DNA from: Panax quinquefolius
Taxonomy: Eukaryota > Streptophyta > Magnoliopsida > Apiales > Araliaceae
DNA length: 64,000 bases
Direction: 5' to 3'
NCBI GenBank assembly: GCA_020205615.1
Contig: CM035156.1
Span: 21,603,128 to 21,667,127 of the forward strand
The notes beneath the pieces were generated by a model that ran no database searches, was not told the DNA's origin, and was given only the letters and a program-made list of their open reading frames with translations. Below, piece after piece: positions 4,216 to 55,110 of this stretch (position 1 is its first letter; each line of letters opens with the position of its first letter). Both the position numbers and the translations under genes were made by a program.

Positions 4216-4473
4216 GTTAGTATCAGAGCTTAGGGATATGATCTCTGGCGGAGATCCGGGATTAGAACTAGGAAGGGAGAGACGAGTAATGTCCTTTACT
4301 AGTGTGTGTCCTACCTAAGCTGAATATCCTTACTTAAGTTGACAAATTGTGATATGTCAATTAACCTTTGTTTTGAAGCTGTATTCTAGAATGATATCTG
4401 AAATACAGGAGATGAGCAATGGAGAAATCATGATGACAAGGAAGATGAAATCTGAAATGAAAGCAAGGTATAT
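4216..4473 (+). mobile_element. Family-A internal region (copy 1)
   Basis: It begins with a tRNA-iMet primer-binding site (ttagtatcagagc, 4217-4229, one mismatch) and carries about 250 bp matching the other two A internal regions (8620-8933, 17471-17791). It lacks the final ~60 bp with the polypurine tract: 'aaagcaaggtat' is joined directly to the next LTR start 'tgtaagacc'. No protein-coding capacity is left. Confidence 0.8.
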
Positions 4474-5837
4474 TGTAAGACCGAATTTTATGAAATAAAA
4501 GTATTTAATTTTGCTTATAATTGTTATTCAGTAAATGGTTAAATTGATAAAAAGTTAAAGTTAATGGTGATATATGAAATTTTTCAAAATACGCAAGTGG
4601 TTATAAAATATTCATTTCTGTCGGGGAATATTCATTTGGTCATGGAATATTCTTGTTGTCGGGAAATATTCGTACGACGGTGCAGCCTTTTGTGGGCCCC
4701 ATAACAGAATAACTGTCGGATGAAGAAAATGACAAGTTTGAGTTTTTATAAATAACGGCAAAGTTGTTACCGTTAACACTGTTGGAATACCTGGTGGTTA
4801 AAATACATTAATACACGTGGTTGCACAAGAGTACACTACAGTATTGCATGTGATTTTTTGAATTATTGATTCTTACATAAGAAGGCACTACTCAATAATT
4901 GTTACAGTAATTACTGTTAAATATTTTATTTTATTGATTCAATAATCGCTGCGTTGATATTTTATATTATTGTTGTTTCAATAATTGTCACTGCACAGTA
5001 TTTCCCATTATCAGATCAATAATTCGTATTATTTGAATAATATTATTAGATAGTATTATTGGCAATGTCCAGAAAGTTCTGTCAAGGAGAGGTTTGGTCA
5101 CTTAATCATGCGCCAAGAAGGAGAAATCCTTATTGAAAGCCCCTCTTTCCAGGAACCACACGGTTGTCATAATTGTGATTCTGTAATATTATTTATGAAT
5201 AATTATTTATTGATTTATATGATAAGGAAATATTTATTTGATGCGGATATAAATGATGGATTTATTTATGTGGTTATAAATGAAGAAATTAATATTGAGG
5301 TGTTTTATCAGTATTTTGTCGGATTGGAGGTATTAAAAACTCAAATCAGTGTTCTTAAATCTCTATTGTGTGAGTTATAATTTTAATCTGACCGTTAGAT
5401 TGTTGTGATGTTTGGATATGTTATACATATATAAGTTGAGTATATGTCCACAAATTTTGAACCGTTAAAAATTAACGTATGATTTGTTATGAATTTTATG
5501 AGGTATTGAAAATCATCCGTTTGTGGATTTTGGATATTTTCGGTTTGGAATTTGGAAAAACTTTCTTCTGCAAAGTTGTAGAGAATTCGATTTCGTGTGG
5601 AAAATTCGTATTTTTCTGATAAACGGACTATTTTCTATGAATTACTAAAGTTTTGGAAAATAAAATATTTTTTATTAAAATTGGGTGGAACCCACTTTTT
5701 GGTTGGTGTTGAATGCATGTGCTGAATTAAGATTCAAGTGTGGTGGGCTGGTCTTAAATGGTTGGTGCGTAGGAAATGAGAAATAATTAATATATTATTT
5801 TATTAATTTAGTCTCCTTTGGCGTTCTAGCATTTTCC

Positions 5838-5845
5838 TATAAATA
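5838..5845 (+). promoter_or_regulatory. TATA box of family-A LTR
   Basis: TATAAATA in the context cctataaataggtgctta. The same box occurs at 19165-19172 in another A copy and in the B LTRs. It would place transcription start near 5865-5875, giving U3 of about 1.4 kb and a leader of more than 2.5 kb. Confidence 0.6.
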
Positions 5846-6772
5846 GGTGCTTATGTTAGAATTGAAAATCACACCAGAAATAAGTTTTCTTTTTCTCTTT
5901 ATGATCGAGCGTATTTTTTGTGAGTATTTAGATACTTTGAGAGTTGCTATTGAGTGGAAGTTTCCTTCGGCTTTACATCTGATATTTCAGTCAGAAGTAT
6001 TGCTCTTTGGAGGTAAGGAATTTTAATGGTTATTATGTTTTTCAGATTCGTAATTTTTCTTACCTTTAAAAATTCTGAAAAAATTTAAAATGATAATTTG
6101 ATGAGTTTTCATGATTGTGTCCAAAACTGGCGATTTTTGGATGTAAAGATTAGGAGTTATGGATTTTATGAGAAAAAACTATTTTAAAAGTAAACCCTTA
6201 TAACTCCTTGTCGTTAACTCCAAAATTGGTGAAATTTTTATTGGAAATACATATATATATAACATAAGTATACTCTGTAAATTTTGGAATTTTTGGACAA
6301 ACGTACAATTTATGATAAATGTCTAAATATTCGGCAGTTTTGGCCATGTAAAAAATAGTAAATGAATTTTAAAAATTCCGAGAAAAATATACGTTCAATA
6401 TGAGACTATATTCTACTAAATCTCAGAAAAGAAATTTTTTTGGAACTAATTTGCTATTTTTCATAAAAATGGACTTGTTATGAGTAAATGAATCAAATAT
6501 TTTATGTGAAGTAACAAAATTGAAAAATAGGATTTTATGGTTTGGGAATCTTATATATGGTATATGCATATTTTTGATGAGGTTGTTGGTTATTGGTGAT
6601 GAAATCTTATGAGTTTGGCATTTTAGGATGATTAAATGCATTATTTAGTAAAGTGTAAACAATTAAAATAAATTATTTATAAGTTTAAGAAATATTATTC
6701 TTTCAATATTATTATATATTAGAAATATTGGTATGGATTTTTATCAGGAATTTCTATTTTTTCATATATCGG

Positions 6773-6841
6773 GGTTACTATTCATGAATTACTATTCATG
6801 AGTTATTATTCACGAAGTTACTATTCACGGGTACTATTCAC
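6773..6841 (+). repeat. Short tandem repeats (ttactattcatga)
   Basis: Five imperfect units of about 13-15 bp based on 'ttactattcatgaa' or 'ttactattcacgag'. Equivalent arrays occur in every A copy (near 11235, 15625, 20095) and, more degenerate, in the B LTRs (near 13545, 22390, 29700). They sit in the presumed transcribed leader. Confidence 0.8.
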
Positions 6842-7195
6842 AACAAAATTGGTTTCTTTTTCTGACCAAATTATCGTTGATTTATGAATCTTACTCTTGA
6901 AATTAAATTCATGTTTTGATCGTATTGTTTTTATTATCATATATAACATTTTTATAACCCTGGTGAAGAAATTTCTCTTTGACTTGAGTGTAAAGATGGG
7001 TAGATTATTGGTATGATCGTGACTATGGGTTTCTTTGGCCAAGAAGGCAAAAGATGAATTGTTGACTGGTATGATCATGACCATTGAATTTATAATTGAA
7101 TATTTTTAGCTTAAGTGCAAAGGTGAATTGATCAACATGGTTATAATTATTGTTTATATAAATTCTGAAATGATTATATATTTCTTTAAGATATT

Positions 7196-7419
7196 AATAT
7201 CTTTAGCCCGTAGTGCAAAGATGACATGTTGTTGAATATCTTTGGTCTGTAGTGCAAAGATGAATTGTTGATGAATATCTTTGGTCCGTAGTGCAAAGAT
7301 GACATGTTGTTGAATATCTTTGGCATGTAGTTCAAAGATGACCTGTTGCCGAATATCTTTGGCCTATAGTGCAAAGATCAACTGTTAATGAATATCTTTG
7401 GCCCGTAGTGCAAAGATGA
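7196..7419 (+). repeat. 39-bp hairpin repeat array (A copy 1)
   Basis: Six units at a 39-bp period. Each contains ATCTTTG, about 10 bases, then CAAAGAT, i.e. a 7-bp perfect inverted repeat able to form a stem-loop. Equivalent six-unit arrays are at 11668-11893, 16049-16274 and 20519-20744. Because 39 is a multiple of three, the array reads as a periodic 13-residue peptide on the minus strand; I treat that as a by-product. Confidence 0.9.
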
Positions 7420-8619
7420 ACTTATTAGTATGATTATGAACAGGAATTGTGATTTGGTATAACCATGATCTTTGATGTTTCTCGTAAAGACAAAGTGATA
7501 TAAATTATCTTTCGCCCGGATGAGAAAAGGACTTTGAACCACAAATATGATTATGAAGTTATTCATATGATTGTGAATGTGGCTGCTGATTGATGTTACA
7601 GGATAAAACATTGTTGGTGGACTTTTAACATGGAGAAGATAATAGACATTATGGTCTATTCGACTCTTTTAATGGATCGCTTCATTCCACCGCAACTATG
7701 GTTGAAAAGTTTTATCATCTACCATATGTTCTAAATCTCTATTTATTACTATTGAAGGCTATTGATAATTTAATTATCTTTAGTCATGATATTCTTTAAT
7801 GAGCTAGTTGTGCTCACCCTTTTGCTTCACAATTTCTTTAAGGTAATAAGAGTGTAGCGGGGTCGAGCGGGGATAACAGGGGAGTAGTGTGGTGGTCCGA
7901 GACTGTCAAAGTTTCTCAACACATTATAAAACGGCATGACATACAATATATAATTGTATTGAGGACCTAAGATGTGTGTGTCGTATATTATACGTCACTT
8001 AATAATTGATTTTGGTGAACAACAATAGGGTGAGGTGAACCCAACTTTGGAAGGGTGTTTTACCACTATCATACAAGATGTCTAATGACATACAACCTCA
8101 TTGTTATCATAAGACAAGGTTGTGCACATCCACTTGTCGAGTATATCTACGATGAGCACTACCTATATGATCTTGGAGTTGGTTGAAACATAACGTTCAA
8201 TCGCAGAGACGGTGGAGATAGTTATATGTCAAGAGAAGACTCACCATGGAAGGAACATGATAGTAATCTTCTCTTTTTCTTTGGGGTCTATAGGATCAAC
8301 CAAGGATAATTCTCTCGGACATATGATATCTATCATAACTTAGATTCATAGCCTCCTATGTACGAAGGTTTCCTTGAACACTTCCCAAAGATTTTAATTT
8401 TTAAAACAGTTATCGATTGTGCCTTTATGTAAGGTGCCATTATGACGTGCTATCCAAAGTTTGGACATGAGTCACAATTGGTATTAAAACTCACAAGATA
8501 TATGTGTTGTTGTATTTTGCACGACAATGGTAGTAATAAAGTTGTAGTTGTTTTTTCGTACCATGTATTTGGCTAACTTAGAATAGGTGGATGGATGGAC
8601 CTTTTTTGGGGGCGCCACA

Positions 8620-8933
8620 ATTGGTATCGAGCTTAGGATATGATCTCTGGCGGAGATCCGAGATTAGAACTAGGAAGGAGAGACGAGTAATATCCTTCGC
8701 TAGTAGTGTCCTACCTAAGTTTAATTTTCTTACTTAAGTCGACAAATTGTGATATGTCAATTAACCTTTGTTTTGAAGTCGTATTCTAGAATGATATCTA
8801 AAATACAGGAGATAAGCAATGGAGAAATCATGATGACAAGGAAGATGGAATCTAAAATGAAAGCAAGGTATTCTCAACTCTTTGAAATACCAGGTACGTA
8901 AATTTCAGGGACGAAATTTCATAAAGAGGGAGA
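8620..8933 (+). mobile_element. Family-A internal region (copy 2)
   Basis: About 314 bp between two A LTRs. It opens with the primer-binding site read as ttggtatcgagctt (8621-8634; CAG read as CG), then a leader, a gag-start-like stretch (gagataagcaatggagaaatc near 8810), and then jumps to a segment colinear with the last ~100 bp before the PPT of element B (aaatgaaagcaaggtattctc; compare 28018). All of gag-pol between is missing. The same junction is present in the other two A internal regions. Confidence 0.8.
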
Positions 8934-11900
8934 TCAGAAGACCCCGAATTTTATGAAATAAAAGTATTTAATTTTTCTTATAATTATTATTCAGTAAATG
9001 GATAAATTGATAAAAAGTTAAAGTTAAGGATGATATATGAAATTTTTCAAAATACGCAAGTGGTTATAAAATATTAATTTCTGTCGGGGAATATTCGTTT
9101 GGTCGTGGAATATTCTTGTTGTCGGGAATATTCGATTTACTGCCGTAGTACCATTTCAGGGCCCCATAATGTAATAACCGCTTCGGATGAAGAAAACGAC
9201 AAGTTTGAGTTTTTATAAATAACGACGTAGTTGTTACCGTTAACATCGTTGGAATATTCGGTGGTTAAAATACGAAGAATACGCGTGGTCGCACAAAGAA
9301 GCATTACCAGATTGCACAAAGTATTTTTTGAATTATTGATTCTTACGTAGTAAGGCACTACTCAATAATTGTTACAGTAATTATCGCTCAATATTTTATT
9401 TTATTGATTCAATAATTGTTGCGTTGATATTTTATATTATTGTTGTTTTAATAATTGTCACTACACAAGATTTCCCATTATCGATCAATAATTCATATTA
9501 TTTGAATAATATTATTAGATAGCATTATTGGAAATGTCTAGAAAGTTCATCAAGGAGAGGTTTGGTCACCTAATCATTACGCCAAGAAGGAGAAATCCTT
9601 ATGGAAAGCCCCCTCTTTCGGGAACCACACTGGTTGTCATAATTGTGATTCTCGTAATATTATTTGTGAATAATTATTTATTGATTTATATGATAAGAAA
9701 ATATTTATTTGATGTGGATATAAATGATGGATTTATTTATGTGGTTATAAATGAAGGAATTAATATTGAGGTATTTTATCAATATTTTGTCGGATTGGAG
9801 GTATTAAAAACTCAAATCAGTGTTCTTAAATCTCTATTACGTGAGTTATAATTTTAATCCGACCGTTAGATCGTTGTGATTTTTGGATATGTTATACATA
9901 TATAAGTTGAGTATATGTCCACAAATTTTGAACCGTTAAAAATTAACGTATGATTTGTTATGAATTTTATGAGGTATTGAAAATCATTAGTTTGTGGATT
10001 TTTTGATATTTTTGGTTTGGAATTTGGAAAAACTTTTTCTTGCAAAGTTGTAGAGAATTCGATTTTTGTGGAAATGGAAAATTCAGTATTTTTTGATAAA
10101 CGGGCTATTTTCTATGAATTCTTCAAGTTTTGAAAATAAAATAATTTTTATTAAAATTGGGTGGACCCACTTTTTTTGGTTGGTGTTGAATGCATGTCTT
10201 TGAATTGAGATTCAAGTGTGGTGGGCTATTCTTAAATGGATGGTGCGAGGAAATGAGAAATAATTAATATATATTATTTTATTAATTTAGTCTCTTTCAT
10301 GTTTCTAGCATTTTTCCTATAATAAGTGCTTATGTTAGAATTGAAAATCACACCGTAAAACAAGTTTTTCTTTTCTCTATATTATCGAGCGTATTTTTGT
10401 GAGTATTTAGATACTTTGAGAGTTGCTATTCGTTGAAGTTTCCTTCTGGCTTTACATCCGATATTCTAATGTAAATATCGCACTTTTGAGGTAAGGGATT
10501 TTAAGTGGTTATTATGTTTTTCGATTTGTAATTTTTTCCGACCTTCAAAAATTCTGGAAAAATTTGAAATGATAATTTGATGAGTTTTCATGATTGTGTC
10601 CAAAATGGCGATTTTGGATGTATAGATTAGAGTTATGGATTTTATGAGAAAAACTATTTTAAAAGTAAACCCTTATAACTCCTTGTGGTTAACTCCAAAA
10701 TTGGTGAAATTTTTATTGGGAGTACATATATATAACATAAGTATATTCTATAAATTTTGGAATTTTTGGACAAACGTACAATTTATGATAAATGTCTAAA
10801 TATTCGGCAGTTTTGGCCATTTGAAAAATAGTAAATGAATTTTAAAAATTCAGAAAAAAAATATATGTTCAATATGGGACTATATTCTGCTAAATCTTAG
10901 AAAAGAAATATTTTTGAAACCGATTTGGTATTTTTCATAAAAATGGACTAGTTATGAGTAAATGAATTAAATATGTTATGTGAAGTAAAAAATTAGAAAA
11001 TAGGATTTTATGGCTTGGGAATCCTATATATGGTATATGCAGATTTTTGATGAGGTTGTTGATTATTGGTGATGAAATCTTATGAGTTTGGCATTTTAGG
11101 ATGATTAAATGCATTATTTAGTAAAGTGTAAACAATTAAAATAAATTATTTATAAGTTTAAGAAATGTTATTCTTTCAATATCATTATACCAAAATATTG
11201 GTATGGATTTTATTGTGGAATTTCTATCTTTTTCATATCGGGGTTACTATTCATGAATTACTATTCATGAGTTATTATTCACGAAGTTACTATTCACAAG
11301 GTACTATTCACGACAAAATTGGTTTCTTTTTTCGGACCAAATTATCGTTGATTTATGAATCTTACTCTTGAAATTAAATCATGTTTTGATCATATTGTTT
11401 TTATTATCATATATAACATTTTTATAACCCTGGTGAAGAAATTTCTCTTTGACTTGAGTGTAAAGATGGGTAGATTATTGGTACGATCGATGACTATGGG
11501 TTCTCTTTGGCCAAGAAGTGCAAAGATGAATTGTCGATCGGTATGATCGTGACCATTGAATTTACAATTGAATATTTTTAGCTTAAGTGCAAAGGTGAAT
11601 TGATCAACATGATTATAATTATTGTTTATATAAATTTTCGAAATGATTATATATTTTTCGAGATATTAATATCTTTGGCCCGTAGTGCAAATATGACATA
11701 TTGTTGAATATCTTTGGCGTAGAAGTAAAAAGATGAATTGTTGATGAATATCTTTGGTCCGTAGTGCAAAGATGACATGCTGTTGAATATCTTTGACATG
11801 TAGTGCAAAGATGACATGTTGCTGAATATCTTTGGCCTGTAGTGCAAAGATGAACTGTTAATGAATATCTTTTGCCCGTAGTGCAAAGATGAACTTATTA

Positions 11901-12473
11901 GTATGATTATGAAGATGAACTATGATTTGGTATAACCATAATCTTTGATGTTTCTGGTAAAGACAGGTGATGTAAATTATCTTCGTCCTGGATGAGAAAA
12001 GGACTTTGAGACCACAAATATGATTATGAGTTATTCATATGATTGTGGACAGGAACTGTTGATTGATGTTACAGGGATAAAACATTGTTGGTGGACTTTT
12101 AACATAGAGAAGATAATAGACATTATGGTCTATTTGACTCTTTTAATGGATCGCTTCGTTCACCGCAACTATGGTTGAAAAGTTTTATCATCTACCATAT
12201 GTTCTAAATCTCTCGATTTATTACTATGAAGGCTATTGATAATTTAATTATCTTTAGTCATGATATTCTTTAATGAGCTAGTTCAGGCTCACCCTTTTGC
12301 TTCACAATTCCTTTAAGGTAATAAGAGTGTAGCGGGGTCGAGTTGGGGATAATACGGGAGTAAAGTGTGGTGGTCCGAGATCACAAAGTTTCTCAACACA
12401 TTATAAAACGGCATATTACATACAATATATAATTGTATTGAGTACCTAAGATGTATGTGTCGTATATTATACG
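8934..12473 (+). mobile_element. Family-A LTR, 5' part (copy 2)
   Basis: Colinear with 4474-8000 of the complete LTR; the first bases are read as 'agaagaccccgaattt' where others have 'tgtaagacc'. It ends at '...cgtatattatacg', the point where a family-B LTR was inserted. It includes a damaged TATA region (cctataataagtg, near 10317) and six hairpin repeats at 11668-11893. Confidence 0.85.
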
Positions 12474-13188
12474 TGTAAGACCCCAACTTATTATTAATGA
12501 AATTTAATTTTCTCTATTTATTATTTTGAAATAGTAAGGGTTGATTTGATTAATGTGGATAGTTATGGGTAAAATACGCAAATATTTCAAAATAAGCAAG
12601 TGGTTATAAAATATTCATTGTTGTCGGAGAATATTCGTTTGGTCGTGGAATATTCTTGCTGTCGGAGAATATTCGTTTGGTCGTGGATTATTTTTAATGT
12701 GACAATTGTTGAAAATTGAAATTTTATCTTTTTCTGATAAAATAATTCATTTAAATATATTATTATATTTTAATAATATAATAATGGTGATATTTTTACA
12801 ACGAATGTGGGATATATGAGTATACGAGGAGGAAGAGTATTTTTGTTGCAATAAATGTTTAAAACATGTCAAACATGTCTGTGGACCCCATTTATCATCG
12901 AAATTTGATTATACCGTAAAATCGCCTCGCTTCAGGATTTCAAATAATTTCTATTTGGAATTTGGAAAACTTTCTTTCGCAAAGTTTTAGAGAATTGAAT
13001 TTCCTATAAAAATACGAGAGATTTGAATTTTTCTGACAAAAGGGCTATTTATTATGAATTATTGAAGTTCAAGCTCCAAAATAATTAATTTTTGAAGTTT
13101 TAAATATTTTTTTACAAAAACGTTTTTTTTGCATGTGTGAGGCATGTATTCAATTCAATGAATTTCAGATTCAAAGGTATGCGTGAAG

Positions 13189-13224
<36 letters not shown>

Positions 13225-14528
13225 AATAAATTTTCTACTTTGGTGTTCTAAAGATCATTCTATAAATAAGGTGCTTAGGTTAGAATTGAAAATCACACCG
13301 TAAACTCAAGTTTTCTCTATATTATCGAGCGTATTCTTGTGAGTATTTTGAGTATATTTTGAGTATTGCTATATACTGGTGCAAGTTCAAGTCATAGCCT
13401 ATATCCCTGTTTCAACTGTAAACTGCTTTTCTTTGTGAGGTAAGAGATATATTTTTTTCGTAATGATATTATTTCTTCAATATCATTATGTGAAATATCG
13501 ATCCAAGTTTTTATCAAATTTGGAACTTTTGGTGTCTGAGTTATTGCTCATGTATTCTAAGACTATTCACGATATCTGATAATTATTCACGAATACACAG
13601 ACTATTCATCGAAAAATAAAATTTTCCTTTTCGTCCCCAAAATATCTATTGTGGATACTAGCTTTGATTGTATCCATGTTTTGATCATTCTTGAATTTTA
13701 CACCACTATGATTATTTTTGAGGTATTTTTGGACATGGATAAAACAAAGTACGAATCCTTAATCCTTAATCCTTGTCATTTTGTTTCACTGGATTCGCTT
13801 CTTTAAAAATATGTTTCATCATCCTCAGTCTTAAATGATGATATTATTGAATATCTTTGGCCTGTAGTGCAAAGATGAATGATTTCTGATGAATATCTTT
13901 GGCCCGTAGTGCAAAGATGAACAGGTGTTTAGATTAACATGACTAATCGATGAATATCTTTGGCTCAGTAGTGCAAAGATGAATATTTGATTCCAGATGT
14001 ATATTGATTGATGTTTACAGGATAAAAGATAGACGATGAACTTTTAAATTCATACATGTAAGATAGTAGTTTGCATTCTCTACTTAACTCTTCTAATGAA
14101 TTATTTTCATTTACGAATATTGATTTAAAACTTGTTGTCTATTGTATTCTATTAGATTTTTCCCTGTTGAAGACTAACGATAATTTGTTGTATATTATCT
14201 TAGTCATAATATTCTTTATTGGGCTAATTGAGCTCACCCTTTTCCTTGTTGTTCCATTTTTTTTCTCAGGAGGCGAGAATGTAGCGAGTATTAGTTGGGG
14301 TATGGAATGAAGGTTCTAGAGAGAGTTGTTTAGTAGTCCTCACCATTTTTGTAAAATAATGTATCAATAATTATGATGGGGATTTATTTGCGTGTGGATA
14401 TTGTCTAGATGACAATATCTGTATTTAAACTCACAATTTATATGTTGTAATAATAAAGTTATAGTTGTTTTACGTATATGTATTGATAAACTCGAATGGG
14501 TGATGTATACCTATTTTGGGGCGCCACG
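12474..14528 (+). mobile_element. Family-B LTR (duplicated copy)
   Basis: A 2.06-kb LTR starting TGTAAGACCCCAAC and ending '...gcgccacg' before a primer-binding site. It is almost identical to the 5' LTR at 21321-23378, including the absence of a ~560-bp segment found in the 3' LTR. It has TATAAATA at 13261-13268, a (TA)n tract at 13191-13221 and three hairpin repeats (13848-13985). It sits at the same base of the A LTR as element B, because it is part of the tandem duplication rather than an independent insertion. Confidence 0.85.
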
Positions 14529-14944
14529 GTTGGTATCGAGCTTAGGGATATGATCTCCATGAGATCGGGGAATAGAACTAGAGGGGAGAGATGAGTAAAT
14601 CCTTCGCCAAGTGTGTCCTACAAGCTTATTTGTTAGTTGGTCAAGATATATAGGATATTATGTGATATATTGATTTCCTTAATTAACTCTTGTTTTATGA
14701 CAAGATTTGAGAATGTCGATCGAGAATATTAACAATGGAAATGAGACCGTGGAGACGCCTGTACTCACCAACGAGGAGAACGCGTAACAGTATTGGCGCA
14801 ATTCCTCCCGTGAACAACAACCACCGAGCGGAGATGATGAACGAGGGGATGTTTAGAAGCTTTTTGCAGTTCACGCAAAATCGCAGACGAGGGAGACTCG
14901 TGTTCAAAATACAGGAGGAAATGATAGCAATTCACGGGTTGTCA
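14529..14944 (+). pseudogene. Family-B leader and gag N-terminal fragment
   Basis: This has a tRNA-iMet primer-binding site (tggtatcgagctt, 14531-14543), a ~180-bp leader, then a gag start ATG at 14713 encoding M-S-I-E-N-I-N-N-G-N-E-T. It is colinear with 23379-23782 of element B and stops at 14944, where sequence returns to A-LTR text. Only about 75 codons of Gag remain. Compared with the other copy the frame differs by small indels near 14750 ('cctgtact' against 'cttcagact') and near 14800, again at CTG/CAG positions. Confidence 0.8.
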
Positions 14945-17470
14945 TTTGAAATGATAATTTGATGAGTTTTCATGATTGTGTCCAAAAATGGCGATTTTTG
15001 GATGTATAGATTAGGAGTTATGGATTTTATGAGAAAAAACTATTTTAAAAATAAACCCTTATAACTCATTGTGGTTAACTCCAAAATTGGTGAAATTTTT
15101 ATTGGGAGTACATATATATAACATAAGTATATTCTATAAATTTTGGAATTTTTTGGACAAACGTACAATTTATGATAAATGTCTAAATATTATAGTTTTG
15201 GCCATTTGAAAAATAGTAAATGAATTTTAAAATTCGTAAAAAAATATATGTTCAATATGGGACTATATTCTTCTAAATCTTAGAAAAGAAATATTTTTGA
15301 AACCGATTTGGTATTTTTCATAAAATGGACTAGTTATGAGTAAATGAATTAAATATGTTATGCGAAGTAACAAAATTAGAAAATAGGATTTTATGGCTTG
15401 GGAATCCTATATATGGTATATGCAGATTTTTGATGAGGTTGTTGATTATTGGTGATGAAATCTTATGAGTTTGGCATTTTAGGATGATTAAATGCATTAT
15501 TTAGTAATGTGTAAACAATTAAAATAAATTATTTATAAGTTTAAGAAATGTTATTCTTTCAATATCATTATACCAAAATATTGGTATGGATTTTATCATG
15601 GAATTTCTATCTTTTCATATCAAGGGGTTACTATTCATGAATTACTATTCATGAGTTATTATTCACGAGTTACTATTCACAATGTACTATTCACGACAAA
15701 ATTGGTTTCTTTTTCTGACCAAATTATCGTTGATTTATGAATCTTACTCTTGAAATTAAATTCATGTTTTGATCGTATTGTTTTTATTATCATATATAAC
15801 ATTTTTATAACCCTGGTGAAGAAATTTCTCTTTGACTTGAGTGTAAAGATAGGTAGATTATTGGTATGATCGTGACTATGGGTTCTCTTTGGCCAGTAGT
15901 GCAAAGATGAATTGTTGACTGGTATGATCGTGACCATTGAATTTACAATTGAATACTTTTAGCTTAAGTGCAAAGGTGAATTGATCAACATGATTATAAT
16001 TATTGTTTATATAAATTCTGAAATGATTATATATTTCTTTGAGATATTAATATCTTTGGCCCGTAGTGCAAATATGACATATTGTTGAATATCTTTGGCC
16101 TGTAGTGCAAAGATGAATTGTTGATGAATATCTTTGGTCCGTAGTGCAAAGATGACATGCTGTTGAATATCTTTGACATGTAGTGCAAAGATGACATGTT
16201 GCTGAATATCTTTGGCCTGTAGTGCAAAGATGAACTGTTAATGAATATCTTTTGCCCGTAGTGCAAAGATGAACTTATTAGTATGATTATGAAGATGAAC
16301 TATGATTTGGTATAACCATAATCTTTGATGTTTTACGGTAAAGACAGTGATGTAAATTATCTTCATTCCGGATGAGAAAAGGACTTTGAGACCACAAATA
16401 TGATTATGAAGTTATTCATATGATTGTGTATGTGAACCTGTTGATTGATGTTACGAGGATAAAACATTGTTGGTGGACTATTAACATAGAGAAGATAATA
16501 GACATTATGGTCTATTTGACTCTTTTAATGGATTGCTCGTTCCACTGCAACTATGGTTGAAAAGTTTTATCATCTACCATATGTTCTAAATCTCTTATTT
16601 ATTACTATTGAAGGCTATTGATAATTTAATTATCTTTAGTCATGATATTCTTTAATGAGCTAGTTGTGCTCACCCTTTTGCTTCACAATTTCTTTAAGGT
16701 AATAAGAGTGTAGCGGGGTCGAGCGGGGATAACAGGGGAGTAGTGTGGTGGTCCGAGACTGTCAAAGTTTCTCAACACATTATAAAACGGCATGACATAC
16801 AATATATAATTGTATTGAGGACCTAAGATGTATGTGTCGTATATTATACGTCACTTAATAATTGATTTTGGTGAACAACAATATGGTGAGGTGAACCCAA
16901 CTTTGAAAGGGTGTTTTACCACTATCATACAAGATGTATATAACATACAACCCCGCTGTTATAATAAGACAAGGTTGTGCACATCCACTTGCTGAGTATA
17001 TCTACGAGCACTACCTATATGATCTTGGAGTTTGGTTGAAACATAACGTTCAATTGCAGACGGTGGAGATAGTTATATGTCAAGAGAAGACTCACCATTG
17101 GAAGGAACATGATAATAATCTTCTCGCTTTTTCTTTGGGGTCTATAGGATCAACCAAGGATAATTCTCTGGACATATGATATCTATCATAACTTAGATTC
17201 ATAGCCTCCTATGTACGAAGGTTTCCTTGAACACTTCCCAAAGATTTTAATTTTTAAAACAGTTATTGACTGTGCCTTTATGTAAGGTGCCATTATGACG
17301 TGCTATCCAAAGTTTGGACATGAGTCACAATTGGTATTAAAACTCACAGTATATGTGTTGTTGTATTTTGCACGACAATGGTAGTAATAAAGTTCTAGTT
17401 GTTTTCTGTACCATGTATTTGGCGTCTTAGAATAGGTTGGATGGATTGGACCTATTTTGGGGGCGTCACA
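14945..17470 (+). mobile_element. Family-A LTR, 3' part (copy 3)
   Basis: Colinear with 6084-8619. It ends '...gggggcgtcaca' at 17470. It contains five 'ttactattcatga' repeats (15625-15695), six hairpin repeats (16049-16274) and the AATAAA region near 17390. It begins at the duplication junction, so it overlaps copy 2 in content (A-LTR positions ~1610-3540 are present on both sides of the B copy). Confidence 0.85.
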
Positions 17471-17791
17471 GTTGGTATCAGAGCTTAGGGATATGATCTC
17501 TAGCGGAGATCCGAGATTAGAACTAGGAAGGGAGAGACGAGTAATATCCTTCGCTAGTGTGTGTCCTACCTAAGCTGAATATGCTTACTTAAGTTGACAA
17601 ATTGTGATATGTCAATTAACCTTTGTTTTGAAGCTGTATTCTAGAATGATATCTGAAATACAGGAGATAAGCAATGGAGAAATCATGATGACAAGGAAGA
17701 TGGAATCTAAAATGAAAGCAAGGTATTCTCAACTCTTTGAAATACTGTGCACGAAATTTTCAGTGGACTTAAATTTCATAAGAGGGGAGAT
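17471..17791 (+). mobile_element. Family-A internal region (copy 3), PBS and PPT
   Basis: The best preserved A internal region, 321 bp. The PBS tggtatcagagc (17473-17484) is a perfect tRNA-iMet match of 12 bases. A polypurine tract agaggggaga (17781-17790) lies just before the next LTR. Between are a leader, a short gag-start-like stretch and the very end of pol ('aaatttcataag'), with everything else deleted. As a unit LTR-321 bp-LTR this is a non-autonomous retrotransposon. An 85-codon ORF (17604-17861) crosses into the LTR and has no family match that I recognise. Confidence 0.85.
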
Positions 17792-20700
17792 TGTAAGACC
17801 CGAATTTTATGAAATAAAAGTATTTAATTTTTCTTATAATTATTATTCAGTAAATGGATAAATTGATAAAAAGTTAAAGTTAAGGATGATATATGAAATT
17901 TTTCAAAATACGCAAGTGGTTATAAAATATTAATTTACATTTAGGGAATATTCGTTTGGTCGTGGAATATTCTTGTTGTTTGGGAATATTCGTAAATGCG
18001 CTGCCAAAATACCATTTCAGGGCCCCATAATGTAATAACCGTTGGATGAAGAAAATGACAAGTTTGAGTTTTTATAAATAACTGGTGAAGTTGTTATACT
18101 GCTAACACCATCGTTGGAATATTCGGTGGTTAAAATACGAATACTGCATTGGTTGCACAAAAGAAAGACACCGGTATTGCGATATTTTTGAATTATTGAT
18201 TCTTACATAAGAAAGCACTACTCAATAATTGTTACAGTAATTACTGTTCAATATTTTATTTTATTGTTTCAATAATTGTTGCGTTGATATTTTATTTTAT
18301 TGTTGTTTTAATAATTGTCACTACACAGTGTTTCCCATTATCAGATCAATAGTTCATATTATTTGAATAATAATATTAGATAGCATTATTGGAAATGTCC
18401 TGAAACTTACACAAGGAGAGGTTTGGTCACCTAATTGCGCCAAGAAGTGAGAAATCCTTATGGAAAGCCCCTCTTTCTTGGGAACCACCGGTTGTCATAA
18501 TAATGGATTCGTAATATTATTTGTGAATAATTATTTATTGATTTATATGATAAGAAAATATTTATTTGATGCGGATATAAATGATGGATTTATTTATGTG
18601 GTTATAAATGAAGGAATTAATATTGAGGTATTTTATCAATATTTTGTCGGATTGGAGGTATTAAAACTCAAATCAGTGTTCTTAAATCTCTATTACGTGA
18701 GTTATAATTTTAATCCGACCGTTAGATCGTTGTGATTTTTGGATATGTTATACATATATAAGTTGAGTATATGTCCACAAATTTTGAACCGTTAAAAATT
18801 AACGTATGATTTGTTATGAATTTTATGAGGTATTGAAAATCATTAGTTTGTGGATTTCGGATATTTTCGGTTTGGAATTTGGAAAAACTTTCTTCTGCAA
18901 AGTTGTAGAGAATTCGATTTCGTGTGGAAAATTCGTATTTTTTTGATAAACGGGATATTTTCTATGAATTACTGAAGTTTCAGAAAATAAAATAATTTTT
19001 ATTAAAATTGGGTGAGACCCACTTTTTGGTTGGTGTTGAATGCATGTGCTGAATTGAGATTCAAGTGTGGTGGGCTGGTCTTAAATGGATGGTGCGTAGG
19101 AAATGAGAAATAATTAATATATTACTTTATTAATTTAGTCTCCTTTGGCGTTCTAGCATTTTCCTATAAATAGGTGCTTATGTTAGAATTGAAAATCACA
19201 CCAGAAACAAGTTTTCTTTTTCTTTTTATGATCGAGCGTATTTTTGTGAGTATTTAAATACTTTGAGAGTTGCTATTCAGTGGAAGTTTCCTTCGGCTTT
19301 ACATCCGATATTACAGTCAGAAGTACTGCACTTTTGAGGTTAGGGATTTTAAGGGTTATTATGTTTTTCAGATTTGTAATTTTTCTGACCTTTAAAAATT
19401 CTGGAAAAATTTGAAATGATAATTTGATGAGTTTTCATGATTGTGTCCAAAAATGGCGATTTTTGGATGTATAGATTAGGAGTTATGGATTTTATGAGAA
19501 AAAACTATTTTAAAAATAAACCCTTATAACTCATTGTGGTTAACTCCAAAATTGGTGAAATTTTTATTGGGAGTACATATATATAACATAAGTATATTCT
19601 ATAAATTTTGGAATTTTTGGACAAACGTACAATTTATGATAAATGTCTAAATATTCGGCAGTTTTGGCCATTTGAAAAATAGTAAATGAATTTTAAAAAT
19701 TCAGAAAAAAATATATGTTCAATATGGGACTATATTCTTCTAAATCTTAGAAAAGAAATATTTTTGAAACTGATTTGGTATTTTTTCATAAAAATGGACT
19801 AGTTATGAGTAAATGAATTAAATATGTTATGCGAAGTAACAAAATTAGAAAATAGGATTTTATGGCTTGGGAATCCTATATATGGTATATGCAGATTTTT
19901 GATGAGGTTGTTGATTATTGGTGATGAAATCTTATGAGTTTGGCATTTTAGGATGATTAAATGCATTATTTAGTAATGTGTAAACAATTAAAATAAATTA
20001 TTTATAAGTTTAAGAAATGTTATTCTTTCAATATCATTATACCAAAATATTGGTATGGATTTTATTGTGGAATTTCTATCTTTTTCATATCGGGGTTACT
20101 ATTCATGAATTACTATTCATGAGTTATTATTCACGAGTTACTATTCACAAGGTACTATTCACGACAAAATTGGTTTCTTTTTCTGACCAAATTATCGTTG
20201 ATTTATGAATCTTACTCTTGAAATTAAATTCATGTTTTGATCGTATTGTTTTTATTATCATATATAACATTTTTATAACCCTGGTGAAGAAATTTCTCTT
20301 TGACTTGAGTGTAAAGATAGGTAGATTATTGGTATGATCGTGATTATGGGTTCTCTTTCGCCAAGAAGTGCAAAAGATGAATTGTTGATCGGTATGATCG
20401 TGACCATTGAATTTACAATTGAATACTTTTAGCTTAAGTGCAAAGGTGAATTGATCAACATGATTATAATTATTGTTTATATAAATTCTGAAATGATTAT
20501 ATATTTCTTTGAGATATTAATATCTTTGGCCCGTAGTGCAAATATGACATATTGTTGAATATCTTTGGCCTGTAGTGCAAAGATGAATTGTTGATGAATA
20601 TCTTTGGTCCGTAGTGCAAAGATGACATGTCATTGAATATCTTTGATATGTAGTGCAAAGATGACGTATTCTTGAATATCTTTGGCCTGTAGAAAAAGAT

Positions 20701-21320
20701 GAATCGTTAATGAATATCTTTTTGCGTGAAGTGCAAAGATGAACTTATTAGTATGATTATGAAGATGAACTATGATTTGGTATAACCATAATCTTTGATG
20801 TTTCTGGTAAAGACAGGTGATGTAAATTATCTTCGTCCTGGATGAGAAAAGGACTTTGAGACCACAAATATGATTATGAGTTATTCATATGATTGTGGGA
20901 TGAGGCTGATTGATTGATGTTACTGGGGATAAAACATTGTTGGTGGACTTTTAACATGTAGAAGATAATAGACATTATGGTCTATTTGACTCTTTTAATG
21001 GATTGCTCGTTCCGCTGCTACTATGGTTGAAAAGTTTTATCATCTACCATATGTTCTAAATCTCTGATTTATTACTATTGAAGGCTATTGATAATTTAAT
21101 TATCTTTAGTCATGATATTCTTTAATGAGCTAGTTGTGCTCACCCTTTTGCTTCACAATTCCTTTAAGGTAATAAGAGTGTAGCGGGGTCGAGCGGGGAT
21201 AACATGGGAGTAGTGTGGTGGTCCGAGACTGTCAAAGTTTCTCAACATATTATAAAACGGCATGACATACAATATATAATTGTATTGAGTACCTAAGATG
21301 TATGTGTCGTATATTATACG
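17792..21320 (+). mobile_element. Family-A LTR, 5' part (copy 4)
   Basis: It starts TGTAAGACCCGAATTT and runs to '...atattatacg' where element B is inserted; it continues at 30673. The TATA box is at 19165-19172 and the hairpin array at 20519-20744. The 5-bp target site ATACG (21316-21320) is repeated at 30673-30677. Without B and the TSD this LTR would be about 4.14 kb, matching copy 1. Confidence 0.88.
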
Positions 21321-22037: not shown

Positions 22038-22072
<35 letters not shown>

Positions 22073-23378: not shown

Positions 23379-23380
23379 GT

Positions 23381-23391
23381 TGGTATCGAGC
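23381..23391 (+). promoter_or_regulatory. Primer-binding site of B (tRNA-iMet)
   Basis: It reads tggtatcgagc directly after the LTR. The initiator-Met tRNA complement is TGGTATCAGAGC, so the copy lacks one base exactly at CAG. The A copies at 4218 and 17473 read CAG. Confidence 0.85.
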
Positions 23392-23571
23392 TTAGGATAT
23401 ATGATCTCCGCGGAGATCGGGGAATAGAACTAGAGGGAGAGATGAGTAAATCCTTCGCTAGTGTGTCCTACCAAGCTTATTTGTTAGTTGGTCAATATAT
23501 AGGATATTATGTGATATATTGATTTCCTTAATTAACCCTTGTTTTATGTGATGATTTGAGAATGTCGATCG

Positions 23572-33519: not shown

Positions 33520-33521
33520 TA

Positions 33522-42946: not shown

Positions 42947-42948
42947 CT

Positions 42949-44828
42949 TATTGGGTTTGTAATATTCATAACTTGATCAAATTGCATAAAAGTGCGAGCG
43001 TGTAAAATCGAGTTTAAAAATTTACAAACCATATACTGGGATCATCCTTTATGCACAATTATTAATTAAGCGAAAAGATAAAATAATAAATCATACCCTT
43101 GAAGATCGAGCTTCCTCGGTGCAAGTTCACCTCGAAATCCTTTTAGCGTTCGATCTTGAATCCACGGGTTTGGTTCCTTCCTTTGATCGGCGTTAGCCAC
43201 CCATGTGTTTGGCCTCTGGGGTGATCCACGAGGAAGAATAAAATTCAAGAAGATGGGTGTTATTGGCTAAACCCTAGTTTTTTATCTACTATAGAAAAGG
43301 CGTACTCTCAACAATTGGAATTATTACGTCTATTTTAAAAGTCAACAACCCATACCACCCATAATAAGACTCCTCTTATTTATAGATGTGGGCAACCCAC
43401 CTTAACAATTAAGGAATTGGGTTTTATTTAATTAATTAAATTCTTTTAATTAATTAAGCTCCACTAATCTTATTAGGGATAATTAATTAAACTCCTTTAA
43501 CTAATTTTCCTTCTAATCCAATTAGGAATAAATGAAATACTTATATTAAATTAATTCCTAAACTCTTTTAGAAATTAAAATAATAATAATTGTAATAATA
43601 TTAATAAGACTCCTCTTATTAATTTATATTTAATATTTCTAAAATATTAAATAATAAATATTAAACTATTTAATTTATTACATCACCATAGATTAAATTA
43701 AATATACTTAACTATATTATTACGATTATGCCATTAACTTCTTAAATAATTATTCTTCCTTTTATGGTGTGACCCTTTAGGTTCTCCATATTAAGCCGGT
43801 TTGTGAATAAATCAATTAGAACAATTCTAATCTTATTTAAATAAATAAATTAAACAATTAATTTATTTAAATAATATAATATTTATTCTCTGATAGGATA
43901 AGCCTCCTAGCGATCAACGACTTTCCGGATAATATAGATTTCAACATTAATCATTAAAGAACCTTTGAGTAAATAGTTCTGCAAATGAATTCAATCCTTC
44001 CACCATCTGATGTCCCAATTAAATATAAGACATGGAATTCTTTGTCGAGTCTTATTTTATTTAATTATATGTATTTCGATCCTTAAATGCACAACTCCAA
44101 ATAATGCAAATTAGAAACTCCTTTCTAATTTCATTACGCCTAACCCGAGGACTCTTTGGGTTGTCATTTATCGAATCACATAGGACATTTCTCTTCTTTT
44201 ATTAGAAGTGGTAGATTCTTTATTGATCATACATTATCTCCATATACTGACTTATTATACCCAAGCATACCCTTTGATATACCTAAGGGTCTTAAGGAAT
44301 AAGTCAAAGTATAACTCATCATACACAAGATACTATGATGATCTCAAGTCGAAGGATTACTTGTCTTACTATCACTACTGAGAATTCCTATTGACGAATG
44401 AATAAAACTCCATTAGGTATTCCTTAGCGAGCCACGTTCGATGAACTTATTCTCTAATAAGCACCTACATACTTGCTTTAGTGTCTCCACACAAATGATC
44501 ATGAGATCAATCATCCTCATCCAATGAAGCAAACAGCGTATGTACCCGATCTATCTGGATTCACTAATCCCCAATTTAGTAATCCAACGATTGGGAACTA
44601 TTTTAGTTTTAAGCTTTCTAAAATTTAGATCTCATTAGAATGATCATCATCATTATTCTAAAAGCATTGCTTAAAACTATGGGTTTATCACATATTATAA
44701 AAGCGACATCGTGTAGATAATTAAAAGCCTTTAATAAATTAATACTTTTTATTAATAAATGAATAAGATTGTTACAAAGTATATGCTTTATCATCAAACA
44801 TGATTGGCTTGTATATACTACTTTATCA
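42949..44828 (-). repeat. 5' LTR of element D
   Basis: 1880 bp, colinear with the 3' LTR. The minus-strand TATA box is at 43377-43384 (tatttata on the plus strand). On the plus strand it begins 'tattgggtttgtaat' and ends 'ctttatca' next to TCGA. Confidence 0.9.
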
Positions 44829-48107: not shown

Positions 48108-48485
48108 GGGTTATTCCAACGTAATAATAATAATAACGGAACGGTGTCGTGAAATTCACACCAAGCGGATGTTCCAACAGAATAATAAAGATGGAACCGG
48201 ATCCTGGTGTAAAACACACGATAGGATATTCCAACGTAGAATGATAAAGATTTTAACCGGTCCTGTAAAACACATGATGTGATGTTCCAACGAATAATAA
48301 TAATAAGAGCGGAACCAGTCCTGTAAAACACACGCATGTGGATGTTCCAATGTAATAATAATAAAGACGAACCAGTCCGATGTAAAACACACGCACGTGG
48401 ATGTTCCAACAGAATAATAGAAGAATGTCACCAAGTATAGGGTAAACCACATTATACAAAGTTATTCCAATGTAATAATAAGCAA
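48108..48485. repeat. Tandem repeat, ~59 bp x 7, in C LTR
   Basis: Units start with 'gatgttccaac(g/a)taataataataaag' and contain 'ccagtcctgtaaaacacac'. Starts at about 48110, 48170, 48229, 48282, 48341, 48400 and 48462. Differences between units sit mostly at 'gtcctg' and 'ccaacag' positions. Confidence 0.85.
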
Positions 48486-48696
48486 TGAAATAACAACAGC
48501 TTCTCTTCATGAATAAGAAAGAATAACACCCCTTACATTTGGTAGAGATTGAATCTTTACAACGAAGTGTAGTAACAAAATACTCTTCTTCTTTCTCTCT
48601 TATTCTCTCTATACTTTCTCTCTCTATAGCTTGAATGAATTCGTGAAAAATAATGAAGCCCTAGGCCTCTATTTATAGAAGATTTCTAGCTTAGCA

Positions 48697-48857
48697 CCTG
48701 CCGTGTGAAAAGGCAAGTGGCTTGACGACTAATGATGTGAAAAAAAAAGTGGTTTGACGCCTGTAATGTGAAACGACAAGTGGTTCGACGCCTGTAATGT
48801 GAAACGACAAGTGGTTCGACGCCTGTAATGTGAAACGACAAGTGGTTCGACGTCTGG
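48697..48857. repeat. Tandem repeat, ~31 bp x 5, in C LTR
   Basis: Units of 'aagtggttcgacgcctgtaa' plus 'tgtgaaacgac'; the three central units are identical. It lies immediately upstream of the TATA box on the transcribed (minus) strand, i.e. in a typical enhancer position. Confidence 0.9.
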
Positions 48858-48861
48858 TAAA

Positions 48862-49016
48862 GGTAATTACTATTAACGAAGGTAAATACTATTGACGAAG
48901 GTAAATACTATTCACAAGTGTAATTACTATTGACGAAGGTAATTACTATTGACGAAGGTAAATACTATTCACAAGGGTAATTACTATTGACGAAGGTAAA
49001 TACTATTGACGAAGAG
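48862..49016. repeat. Tandem repeat, ~20 bp x 8, in C LTR
   Basis: Units of 'ggtaattactattgacgaa' and 'ggtaaatactattcacaa' alternate. Adjacent to the 31-bp block and further upstream of the TATA box. Confidence 0.9.
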
Positions 49017-52509: not shown

Positions 52510-53331
52510 ATTTTTGATCGTGCCGAGCTCTGCAGTAAGAAAGGAGCTCAAGATTTTTATCCGGGAAGTCTTCTAAGTAATTGAGGCTACACCCACCGGC
52601 TACCTCAAGTATATTCAATACCGTAAATTCACACGATGAATTTCAACTGAAGAAACAGAGGTCAAGATATTCTCATACCGTAAGAGAATCTTCACCCTCG
52701 GCCAAAAGAGAGGGCTACCGTAAAACCCAGGTTAGTTCCTCTAATAAATCCTTCCAACCCACAATGTAAATAGTAACCAACCCCCAAAACCATTCCTCGA
52801 TCAAAGGCTTTACTTGATCGTCTCCGATCAAGGAGTATACTTAGACCAAAAAACTAAAACAAAATAACCCCATTAATCGTCAAGAACTCGTGGTTCCTCG
52901 CCTTTCTGGCCATTCCTCCCTTCGTGCCCCTCAGAAATACAGATCAAGAGGATGGTGACCAGATTTAAGGGATTCCAACGTTATCCGTAAAAAGGAAACG
53001 CACTCGAGAGTCATCCAAGTTCCGCATCCGCTTCAACACCCAAAGAACCTAATTCAAACAAATCTCCCATAATCGAAACCGCTTTATGCCGAACCTACAC
53101 CCCGACCAAATTTACTTCTTTTTCCCCGAAGGTCGAGACCTTCTCCTAATCTACCCTTGGCCCTTCAGTGTCAAGGTTATCACGCCAAGTTGTGGATCTC
53201 CGACCCTCGCCCAGTTCAATGCCAACTTTCCTTTCGACCTCTTCGGGCTTTCGTCGACACACCGACGATCACCGGCTCAAAGATCACACGGACGGAAATC
53301 TTCTCGATGAAGGAATGAGTTATCCGCCAAG

Positions 53332-53416
53332 GTAAACATAATGACTTCTTCCTTTACATCTCTATTTTCCTTCGAGCATTTTAGAATTTAACTTGAGTAC
53401 TTTGAAATGTGCGCAG
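53332..53416 (+). other. Candidate intron 2 of antisense ORF
   Basis: Donor ccaag|gtaaac at 53332, T-rich body (cttcctttacatctctattttcc), acceptor tgtgcgcag| at 53416. 85 bp. Flanking sequence is GC-richer coding-like text. Confidence 0.55.
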
Positions 53417-54030
53417 CTAATCGTTTTCGATCGATCAAGGCCCGAGACACATAAATGGAGAGGCCGAGGAAGATTTCATGCGCCAAGAAATAAACATGCC
53501 GAAATCGACCTTTTGACCGAGAAAGAGCCGGTCGCTAAGATGCTTTTCATACCATCAATGGTCTTCAAAGAGAATCGATCGGGCCAAGATGGATTTCAAG
53601 ACATCCGATGATGAACCGAGGGCCACAAGAGATGAGTCACGCATCCGCCGCCCAACAAAATCGACCAACCTCGAACGCCGGCTTCGTCAAGAGAACTTAC
53701 TCAAGGCTAAAAATGAGGAGTTCTCTTCACCCAACCAAGCTTAGTCCTTCAACTTGGTGAAGCCGAGACGAAGATCCGTGATGAAGCTCAAGGCATAAGA
53801 CCAAACGCCATAAACTCCGCCATAAGATAAAGACTTGAGGGACGAGGCCCCTGCTCGATCAAGATCTTCGAAATGATTCAGCAGTAGTATAGGACTTCTG
53901 ATGAACTCAATGTAGAGATCACGAAGGTCTATTCGAGGGATATGAGGACCGCTTCAGAACGAGGGAAAGAGAAGCTATCACCGCTTCAATCGACCCTAGA
54001 TTGCTCAATTCCGATGATGAAGGTGCGCGT

Positions 54031-54424
54031 CTAATACGTATATCATGCTTTTTGATTCTATGTAAATATTTAACTTTTTATGTTCATGTAATTTAATCGA
54101 TTTAAATGAAATGAACATTTTATGCTTATTGATAAATCTTTAACTGCCTTGATTATAACTTCGCCTCGATCGCTTTCTTGTCAATAATTTAGTATCAATA
54201 AAATGAACTATTGAATTAGATATGGCATATAACAGCTTAACTCATACAAATGAAGTGAGTTGAATTTTACTAGACAGATTCAAGTTAATCAACTAATGAA
54301 CCGAACTCAACACTTAAACAAAATAAATAACTTATACTCACTCCAGATCAAGAAGAGAGAGATCAATCATACGTGAAGTAAATTTGACGACAAACAGATA
54401 AGAACCAAGACATAAGGATTAATA
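54031..54424. other. E spacer between antisense ORF and repeats
   Basis: About 390 bp, AT-rich, no coding signal. A possible 3' end of the antisense transcript: gatgaag|gtgcgcg near 54027 may be another donor. Confidence 0.4.
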
Positions 54425-55110
54425 ATGACCATCGACTTACCACCCCGATAAGATCAATATAGACCAAAAGGACTCGGGTTACCATCGAATGGCCAAATAG
54501 TCCTACCATACCTCCTTACACCATCTGACCAATAATAAAGGACCATCGACTTACCACCACCGAGAAAGATCAATATAGACCAAAAGGACTCTGGGCTACC
54601 AATGAATGGCCACCATGAGTCCTACCATACCTCCTTACACCATCTAATTCAATAAGTGACCATCGACTTACCACCCCTAATAAGATCAATATAGACCAAA
54701 AGGACTCGGGCTACCATCGAATGGCCAAATGAGTCCTACCATACCTCCTTACACCATCGGACCAATAAAGTGACCATCGACTTACCACCCTCGATAAGAT
54801 CAATATAGACCAAAAGGACTGGGCTACCATCGAATGGCCAAATAGTCCTACCATACCTCCTTACACCATCTGACCAATAGTGACCATCGACTTACCAATT
54901 CCGATAAGATCAATATAGGACCAAAAGGACCTGGGCTACCATCGAATGGCCAAATGAGTCCTACCATACCTCCTTACACCATCTGGACCAATAAATGACC
55001 ATCGACTTACCACCGATAAGATCAATATAGACCAAAAGGACTGGGGCTACCATCGAATGGCCAAATGAGTCCTACCATACCTCCTTACACCATCTAATCA
55101 ATAAGACCAA
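54425..55110. repeat. Tandem repeat, ~114 bp x 6, in element E
   Basis: Units start with 'gaccatcgacttaccac' at 54427, 54541, 54658, 54772, 54882 and 54997. They are near-identical except for three hot spots: the base run after 'cttacca', the 'ggact(c)ggg' word and the 'accatctgacc' word. The last two contain CTG in the best-supported form. The block lies downstream of pol. Confidence 0.95.

Follow-up and report, generated by a model that had tools for sequence, protein, structure and literature searches.

The window analysed here, meaning the whole 64,000-nucleotide stretch of Panax quinquefolius DNA, contains element copies, tandem units, coding pieces and an array of 114-bp units (Table 1). 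When 26 different frame pieces were scanned against Pfam, matches above the curated cut-off were only to reverse transcriptase (25723-25932, 34977-35390, and 31258-31902) and to a Tf2-1-like SH3 piece (27630-27887). Below its cut-off lay an integrase zinc-binding match (34093-34368), a few other matches were at chance level, and the piece at 27273-27491, which includes the putative catalytic-Glu region of an integrase at 27300, matched no Pfam family. At 215 aa, the copia-type reverse transcriptase at 31258-31902 is the window's longest open stretch; in a protein search it fell among plant copia elements (best 120 of 2605 matches). A plasmid search returned two distant bacterial matches.

Table 1. 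Repeat copies, patches, primer-binding sites and array in the window
Feature	Coordinates	Strand	Details
Element copy, well read	4481-7995	+	49 CAG/CTG, 37 CGA/TCG; private changes mainly substitutions
Copy of 4481 element, badly read	8944-12474	+	27 CAG/CTG, 61 CGA/TCG; private changes mainly indels
Copy of 4481 element, well read	17800-21321	+	42 CAG/CTG, 41 CGA/TCG
Tandem unit 1	8371-14521	+	Base-by-base against 17224-23371: 224 difference clusters, 133 indels
Tandem unit 2	17224-23371	+	Partner of 8371-14521
Normal-CAG/CTG patch	31258-33716	+	35 CAG/CTG vs 30 CGA/TCG
Long CAG/CTG-poor block	33817-61723		241 CAG/CTG, 801 CGA/TCG; CpG 0.86-1.16 of expectation
Primer-binding site read as TATCAGAGC	4221-4229	+	CAG/CTG-rich patch; bin 3001-4500, ratio 0.65
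Primer-binding site read as TATCGAGC	8625-8632	+	CAG/CTG-poor patch; bin 7501-9000, ratio 0.32
Primer-binding site read as TATCGAGC	14534-14541	+	CAG/CTG-poor patch; bin 13501-15000, ratio 0.38
Primer-binding site read as TATCAGAGC	17476-17484	+	CAG/CTG-rich patch; bin 16501-18000, ratio 0.54
Primer-binding site read as TATCGAGC	23384-23391	+	CAG/CTG-poor patch; bin 22501-24000, ratio 0.32
Array of 114-bp units	54421-55105	+	A few words vary in almost all units; remainder near-identical

To compare the copies, 11 alignments were made, and 7 were pooled for the trinucleotide, CpG-gain, CCWGG, and cluster counts. The four that repeated sequence of others were left out, and the pooled seven still share sequence. 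The alignments and the CpG-gain, allele-cluster, three-copy, and tandem-pair counts passed over any cluster whose words exceeded 16 to 24 bases. Among the 32 trinucleotide classes in these seven paralogous alignments, CAG/CTG was the least stable, differing between copies at 255 of 417 occurrences (61%), while the overall position-wise difference rate was 16.7% (0.167 of 41,754 positions). The same-composition control GAC/GTC differed at only 113 of 591 occurrences (P of about 1e-42 on non-independent data). Relative to a matched control word, the differences thus concentrate at a motif that can be methylated, as expected of methylation-induced nanopore consensus error. In the single pair of tandem units, the corresponding counts were 78/130 and 32/172 (P = 1.4e-13). 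Indels touched 24% of CAG/CTG words, nearly four times the average of 6.3%. Words containing both G and C were generally more variable, and CpG words varied too. CGA/TCG differed at 44%, and its changes were partly of the C-to-T kind (CGA to TGA 38 and to CAA 24, of 279).

The number of forms at a site was also unusual. Where one copy carried CAG/CTG, at least three forms were present at 37.6% of 210 sites, compared with 8.7% of 19,777 sites, and the other copies were mutually discordant at 73% versus 29%. This per-site count replaced a cluster-level test, in which at least three alleles were found in 46/91 clusters for CAG/CTG but also in 22/42 for GAC/GTC and 19/32 for AGC/GCT. The cluster-level test was dropped, and its earlier form was likewise biased, because clusters with more alleles contain more words. 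Near-identical copies thus read one and the same site differently, with indels, as expected of methylation-induced nanopore consensus error.

The sequence-only reading had proposed that, where function fixes the sequence, copies differ only at CAG/CTG. In general this fails. CAG/CTG stood in either copy in 241 of 924 difference clusters (26%), compared with 7.7% at random places, and the other 683 clusters lacked it; other contexts are affected too, with CAG/CTG the worst of them all. Among 426 indel clusters, 136 were pure homopolymer-length differences, an error that is present in addition and does not explain CAG/CTG. In an LTR-like pair (35520-37384 and 42951-44824), just 7 of 64 clusters held CAG/CTG. 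For three coding-type inverted pairs, indels with CAG/CTG numbered 6/44, 6/18, and 30/138 (3.3, 1.7, and 17.9 at random). These pairs are diverged, their CAG/CTG enrichment is modest and their three-base mismatch rhythm weak, and frame-changing indel clusters made up 40/44, 15/18, and 127/138. Variation in the 114-bp array extends beyond the two words to which it had been limited: ccacc..ataag, aaat(g)agtcc, and caata..tgacc vary as well, along with several single-unit differences. That many frameshifts are artefacts nevertheless appears likely, with CAG/CTG as only part of the basis (116 of the 426 indel clusters).

At individual sites, all the words quoted in the sequence-only reading could be located, some of them offset by 3 to 15 bases relative to the positions given there, and its six gatgttaCAGgat variants were as described. 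GACTGGTATGAT was found at 7064 and 15917, GATCGGTATGAT at 11536 and 20387, and AATCGAGAGG at 27300, while TATCGAGC also occurred in other context at 10383, 13323, 22171, and 29482. The reading of the primer-binding site agreed with the patch index in all five cases and that of gactggtatgat in three of four; the gatgttaCAGgat sites did not follow the index.

The kind of change was distinctive. The new form gained a CpG at 105 of the 255 changed CAG/CTG sites, compared with 13 of 113 for the GAC control. Exact C-to-T or G-to-A forms accounted for 22 of the 255 (TAG 14 and CAA 8), which bears out the earlier remark that methylation decay would yield C-to-T changes, unlike those seen here. If deamination had shaped these copies, such forms should dominate and CpG should be depleted at least as strongly as CHG. 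From 33817 to 61723, however, CpG was not depleted in this way, and the observed/expected ratio of CAG/CTG was 0.34-0.47. Over 32 bins, there was no trade-off between CAG/CTG and its deamination products (rho = -0.11).

The CAG/CTG effect is patchy, even within one repeat family. Between 3961 and 61723, segments had observed/expected CAG/CTG ratios of 0.34 to 0.72, with 31301-33716 as the exception at 0.98. A contrast had been proposed with the end of the window (61724-64000), but it was absent, as the ratio there was 0.62. Across the family copies at 4481, 8944, and 17800, the GAC/GTC level was even (48, 46, and 44). A 1.9-kb part present in four copies kept a level CAG/CTG count (18, 16, 16, and 17) with an uneven CGA/TCG count (19, 28, 16, and 19), and the three copies of the B-type pieces all resembled one another. 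The two tandem units (about 6.15 kb) appeared to differ at 6.8% of the columns in their alignment, but just 30 of the 224 clusters were plain single substitutions lying outside CAG/CTG and CpG words. Their share of indel clusters far exceeded that in a pair of better-read copies (133/224 versus 42/200, P = 5e-16).

Taken together, the CAG/CTG excess is very probably in the main a consensus error of a native-DNA long-read plant assembly and not mutation. This explanation is preferred over real mutation because of the indel excess, the exchange of CAG/CTG for CpG words, and the many alleles, and because CpG is near expectation where CAG/CTG is at less than half, with patchiness inside one family. 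The tests thus support the consensus-error part of the sequence-only reading; its further step, that CHG methylation and the base-caller are the cause, exceeds the evidence. CAG/CTG sites in plant transposons commonly carry a methylated C on each strand. We infer that the platform was most likely Oxford Nanopore. A base-caller presumably trained on 5mC chiefly in CpG would meet a shifted signal at methylated CHG and would either call a CpG-containing word or miscount a base. CAG/CTG would then emerge as CG, CGG, CGA, CGAG, and similar words, varying by copy. Some patches (at about 3.0-7.5, 15-21, 31.3-33.7, and 62.4-64 kb) may have escaped through short-read correction or low methylation, which would put good and bad readings next to each other in one repeat family.

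What spared these patches can be explained in another way. The patches at about 3.0-7.5, 15-21, and 31.3-33.7 kb might mirror methylation and not correction, being truly less CHG-methylated, and the errors would then chart the methylome. Such a reading modifies the consensus-error explanation and does not oppose it; base-calling error should track methylation, and copies of one family are indeed read differently. We consider it unlikely, however, since tandem copies of one family are expected to share their methylation. In addition, the good copy (4481) had indels at 9 of its 89 private changes and the bad copy (8944) at 21 of 37, and most of these indels lay away from CAG/CTG, which points to a correction that acted on errors of every type. 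The division into good and bad copies was based on their CAG and CGA counts, so that tests on this ratio are post hoc and the indel shares form a separate measure; the third L-type copy (30670, 6 versus 7) was left out of this comparison.

A long-read weakness for CAG/CTG simply as a word, whether or not it is methylated, would fit the fact that the data reveal a word and not a mark, and homopolymer and scattered indels do indicate general long-read error. To our knowledge, however, no such weakness exists on unmethylated DNA, and the drift toward CpG words would be expected of a CpG-trained caller, which makes this explanation improbable. Least probable of all is that CHG and CpG methylation made the sites hypermutable and the copies decayed: CpG words do vary, a few TAG and CAA forms occur, and ordinary substitutions are present (3969-7995 and 17224-21321 differ by 91 plain single substitutions), but the CpG gains, the near-expected CpG, the missing trade-off with deamination products, and the predominance of indels over plain substitutions in the tandem pair all argue against it.

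Many of the mutations seen between the transposon copies are thus probably artefacts. If the consensus-error explanation holds, the dating of insertions, the calling of pseudogenes, the counting of frameshifts, and claims of transposon motifs would be badly off in such assemblies, and their CpG content would be inflated. The result is little new biology but a useful warning. The count of CAG+CTG against CGA+TCG, with GAC+GTC as the control, may flag trustworthy stretches without reads. More tentatively, methylated CHG could be an attractor, with a CpG-only caller regularly rewriting mCAG/mCTG as CpG words. Followed through a finished plant assembly, the ratio CAG/(CAG+CGA), counted on both strands, might then gauge, with no need for a reference, where CHG-methylated sequence had gone uncorrected, and published plant transposons might carry in their errors a legible record of the methylome as it stood when they were sequenced.

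Methylation-driven C-to-T decay of plant transposons is well established and, like the present effect, acts on methylated CpG and CHG, but it would lower CpG and give changes of the TAG/CAA type, which are a minority here. In the window, CCWGG sites were changed at 7 of 17 and CAG/CTG elsewhere at 248 of 400, a difference that was not significant (P = 0.12, with 17 CCWGG sites). Sparing of CCWGG is expected if Dcm methylation was included in training; some models lack such training, so sparing is not required. Among titles and abstract openings of the open-licence literature, no description of CAG/CTG being read as CpG words was found. General nanopore models are reported to be less accurate on native plant DNA, with plant DNA modification named as a likely cause and missing plant training data noted as well (PMC9749173; reviewed in PMC7501810). 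Unlike the present counts, the passages concerned give no error breakdown by CHG context, and the words CHG and CAG are absent from PMC9749173. The closest precedent is in enterobacteria, where Dcm CCWGG sites were described as giving about 70% of the consensus errors of the then-current Oxford Nanopore callers in Klebsiella pneumoniae (PMC6591954). There, as would be the case here, 5mC in a CWG word lay outside the training, and coverage did not remove the errors. The Dcm case as described concerns one five-base bacterial motif, whereas here a plant shows the effect at CAG/CTG across numerous contexts, and the readings drift toward CpG words.

Eleven paralogous pairs were aligned and 7 were pooled, with the omission of 4 that repeated the sequence of others; pooled P values are only indicative because the 7 pairs still share sequence. 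CAG/CTG was the least stable of 32 trinucleotide classes: 255 of 417 occurrences, counted in both directions, were not conserved in the other copy, compared with an average of 16.7% of 41,754 positions over the trinucleotide classes, 113/591 for the same-composition control word GAC/GTC, and 113/773 for CTC/GAG. Indels hit CAG/CTG in 24% of cases, compared with 6.3% on average. In the two tandem units (8371-14521 and 17224-23371) alone, 78/130 CAG/CTG and 32/172 GAC/GTC were changed (P = 1.4e-13). CpG words came next in instability (CGA/TCG, 44%), which is partly ordinary C-to-T change; 38 of 279 CGA changes led to TGA and 24 to CAA. CpG words are not unstable per se, since TATCGAGC in another context (ctatatTATCGAGC) reads alike in four copies.

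Among the 255 changed CAG/CTG, CpG was gained in 105 and lost in 10, and the commonest exact replacements were CG (17), CGG (15), TAG (14), CAT (9), CAA (8), and CGA (8). GAC changes gained CpG in 13/113. The exchange of TCAGA and TCGA was the joint most frequent in the largest aligned pair (5 times); it also occurs at the primer-binding site, and TCGA is contained in the word at 27300, which the sequence-only reading assigned to a putative integrase active site.

Sites reading CAG/CTG in at least one of three or four aligned copies were compared form by form. Three or more forms were found at 37.6% of 210 CAG/CTG sites, 8.7% of 19,777 sites overall, and 16.1% of GAC/GTC sites, and the other copies disagreed mutually at 73%, 29%, and 42%, respectively. 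In copies so similar, inheritance would hardly account for such sites. An initial version of this test was biased and did not set CAG/CTG apart.

Alignment-free counts were made in three 3.5-kb copies of one element piece, starting at 4481, 8944, and 17800. CAG/CTG numbered 49, 27, and 42 and CGA/TCG 37, 61, and 41; GAC/GTC stayed nearly level (48, 46, and 44), as did TAG, CTA, CAA, and TTG, the products of deamination (229, 238, and 234). Two shorter piece families showed a like trade of CAG/CTG for CGA/TCG (8:3, 3:12, and 10:4; 2:10, 8:4, and 6:7). However, in a 1.9-kb part with four copies, CAG/CTG was level (18, 16, 16, and 17) and only CGA/TCG rose (19, 28, 16, and 19), and three B-type copies were similar (23:29, 19:28, and 18:33). 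In 2-kb bins (n = 32), CAG/CTG was negatively correlated with CGA/TCG (rho = -0.63) and with CpG content (rho = -0.47, P = 0.006) and not with deamination products (rho = -0.11); for GAC/GTC and CpG, rho was -0.30 (P = 0.09). Methylation decay is expected to reduce CpG first. At 33817-61723, CAG/CTG numbered 241 and CGA/TCG 801, with observed/expected ratios of 0.86 to 1.16 for CpG and 0.34 to 0.47 for CAG/CTG. The segment 55111-61723 (G+C, 43.6%) had the highest CpG of 11 segments (1.16 of expectation), with CAG/CTG at 0.45.

A patch index, CAG/(CAG+CGA) on both strands in 1.5-kb bins, separated patches rich (good) and poor in CAG/CTG relative to CGA/TCG. It was 0.52 to 0.65 in bins 3001-7500 and 15001-21000, 0.59 at 31501-33000, and 0.58 at 63001-64000; it was 0.49 in the first bin of the window and 0.14 to 0.44 in all remaining bins. 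The primer-binding sites, whose expected word TGGTATCAGAGC matches initiator tRNA-Met, agreed with the index in 5/5 cases, each site being one count within its own bin. The gactggtatgat word was in line with it in 3/4 cases, and the gatgttaCAGgat sites compared with it showed no agreement. Private changes were indels in 21/37 cases in the poor copy 8944 and 9/89 in the good copy 4481 (P = 1e-7). Among 115 open stretches of at least 70 aa listed for the window, the longest covers 31258-31902 (215 aa). It falls within a good patch with normal CAG/CTG and encodes part of a copia-type reverse transcriptase (RVT_2, E = 4e-28). The best 120 of its 2605 relatives, Vitis, Sesamum, and Cucumis proteins among them, share 62 to 84% identity with this piece.

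Positions of primer-binding sites, repeats, and other features
Feature	Positions	Remarks
Large LTR-type units in tandem	3969-23782	Long blocks recur at ~4.4 and 8.85 kb spacing
Primer-binding site reading CAG	4221, 17476	Good bins; within the tandem region
Primer-binding site reading CG	8625, 14534, 23384	Poor bins; within the tandem region
TATCGAGC in ctatatTATCGAGC	10383, 13323, 22171, 29482	Identical reading
39-bp tandem repeat, 5.7 copies	7196-7419, 11668-11892, 16049-16272, 20519-20742	One repeat per element copy (four copies)
Gap of exactly 100 N	33717-33816	Only gap in the window
Inverted copy of 25590-27193	33817-35496	Starts right at the gap's right edge
Three adjacent tandem arrays	48167-49014	Periods of 59, 31, and 19 bp

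The sequence-only reading had located the differences between transposon copies at CAG/CTG and ascribed them to base-calling error at CHG-methylated sites. The words it quoted are present, some being displaced by 3 to 15 bases from the positions assigned to them, and the pattern is real, but its scope was overstated: CAG/CTG was seen in only 241/924 difference clusters of the 7 pairs, compared with 7.7% by chance. One LTR-like pair had CAG/CTG in 7/64 clusters, and in three inverted, partly coding pairs, CAG/CTG-bearing indels numbered 6/44, 6/18, and 30/138 (random, 3.3, 1.7, and 17.9). Sites wrong in all copies are invisible to copy-to-copy comparison; the 114-bp array suggests that they exist, because several of its words vary in almost all units. 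The tandem units are 93.2% identical, with 224 clusters: 72 with CAG/CTG, a further 33 with a CpG difference (12 being single substitutions), 41 with homopolymer length only, and 78 others, including 35 indels. Plain single substitutions numbered 30. The better-read pair 3969-7995/17224-21321 had 200 clusters, with 42 indels and 91 plain single substitutions. Thus, the tandem units probably owe a large share of their apparent divergence to artefact.

The disturbance is centred on CAG/CTG, directed toward CpG, rich in indels, and patchy, which supports the proposed base-calling error at CHG-methylated sites as an interpretation. Differences at CAG/CTG are for the most part not biology. Their cause is probably that the CAG/CTG cytosines were CHG methylated and read on a nanopore platform, with a base-caller presumably familiar with 5mC chiefly in CpG. 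That the primer-binding site normally reads CAG is supported by a search pattern for plant retrotransposons in which TGGTATCAGAGC is a fixed word adjoining the LTR (PMC7215508). Plant reads were improved by species-trained models (PMC9749173). In Klebsiella pneumoniae, about 70% of consensus errors by then-current ONT callers fell at Dcm CCWGG sites (PMC6591954), and these errors are a precedent for the mechanism proposed here.
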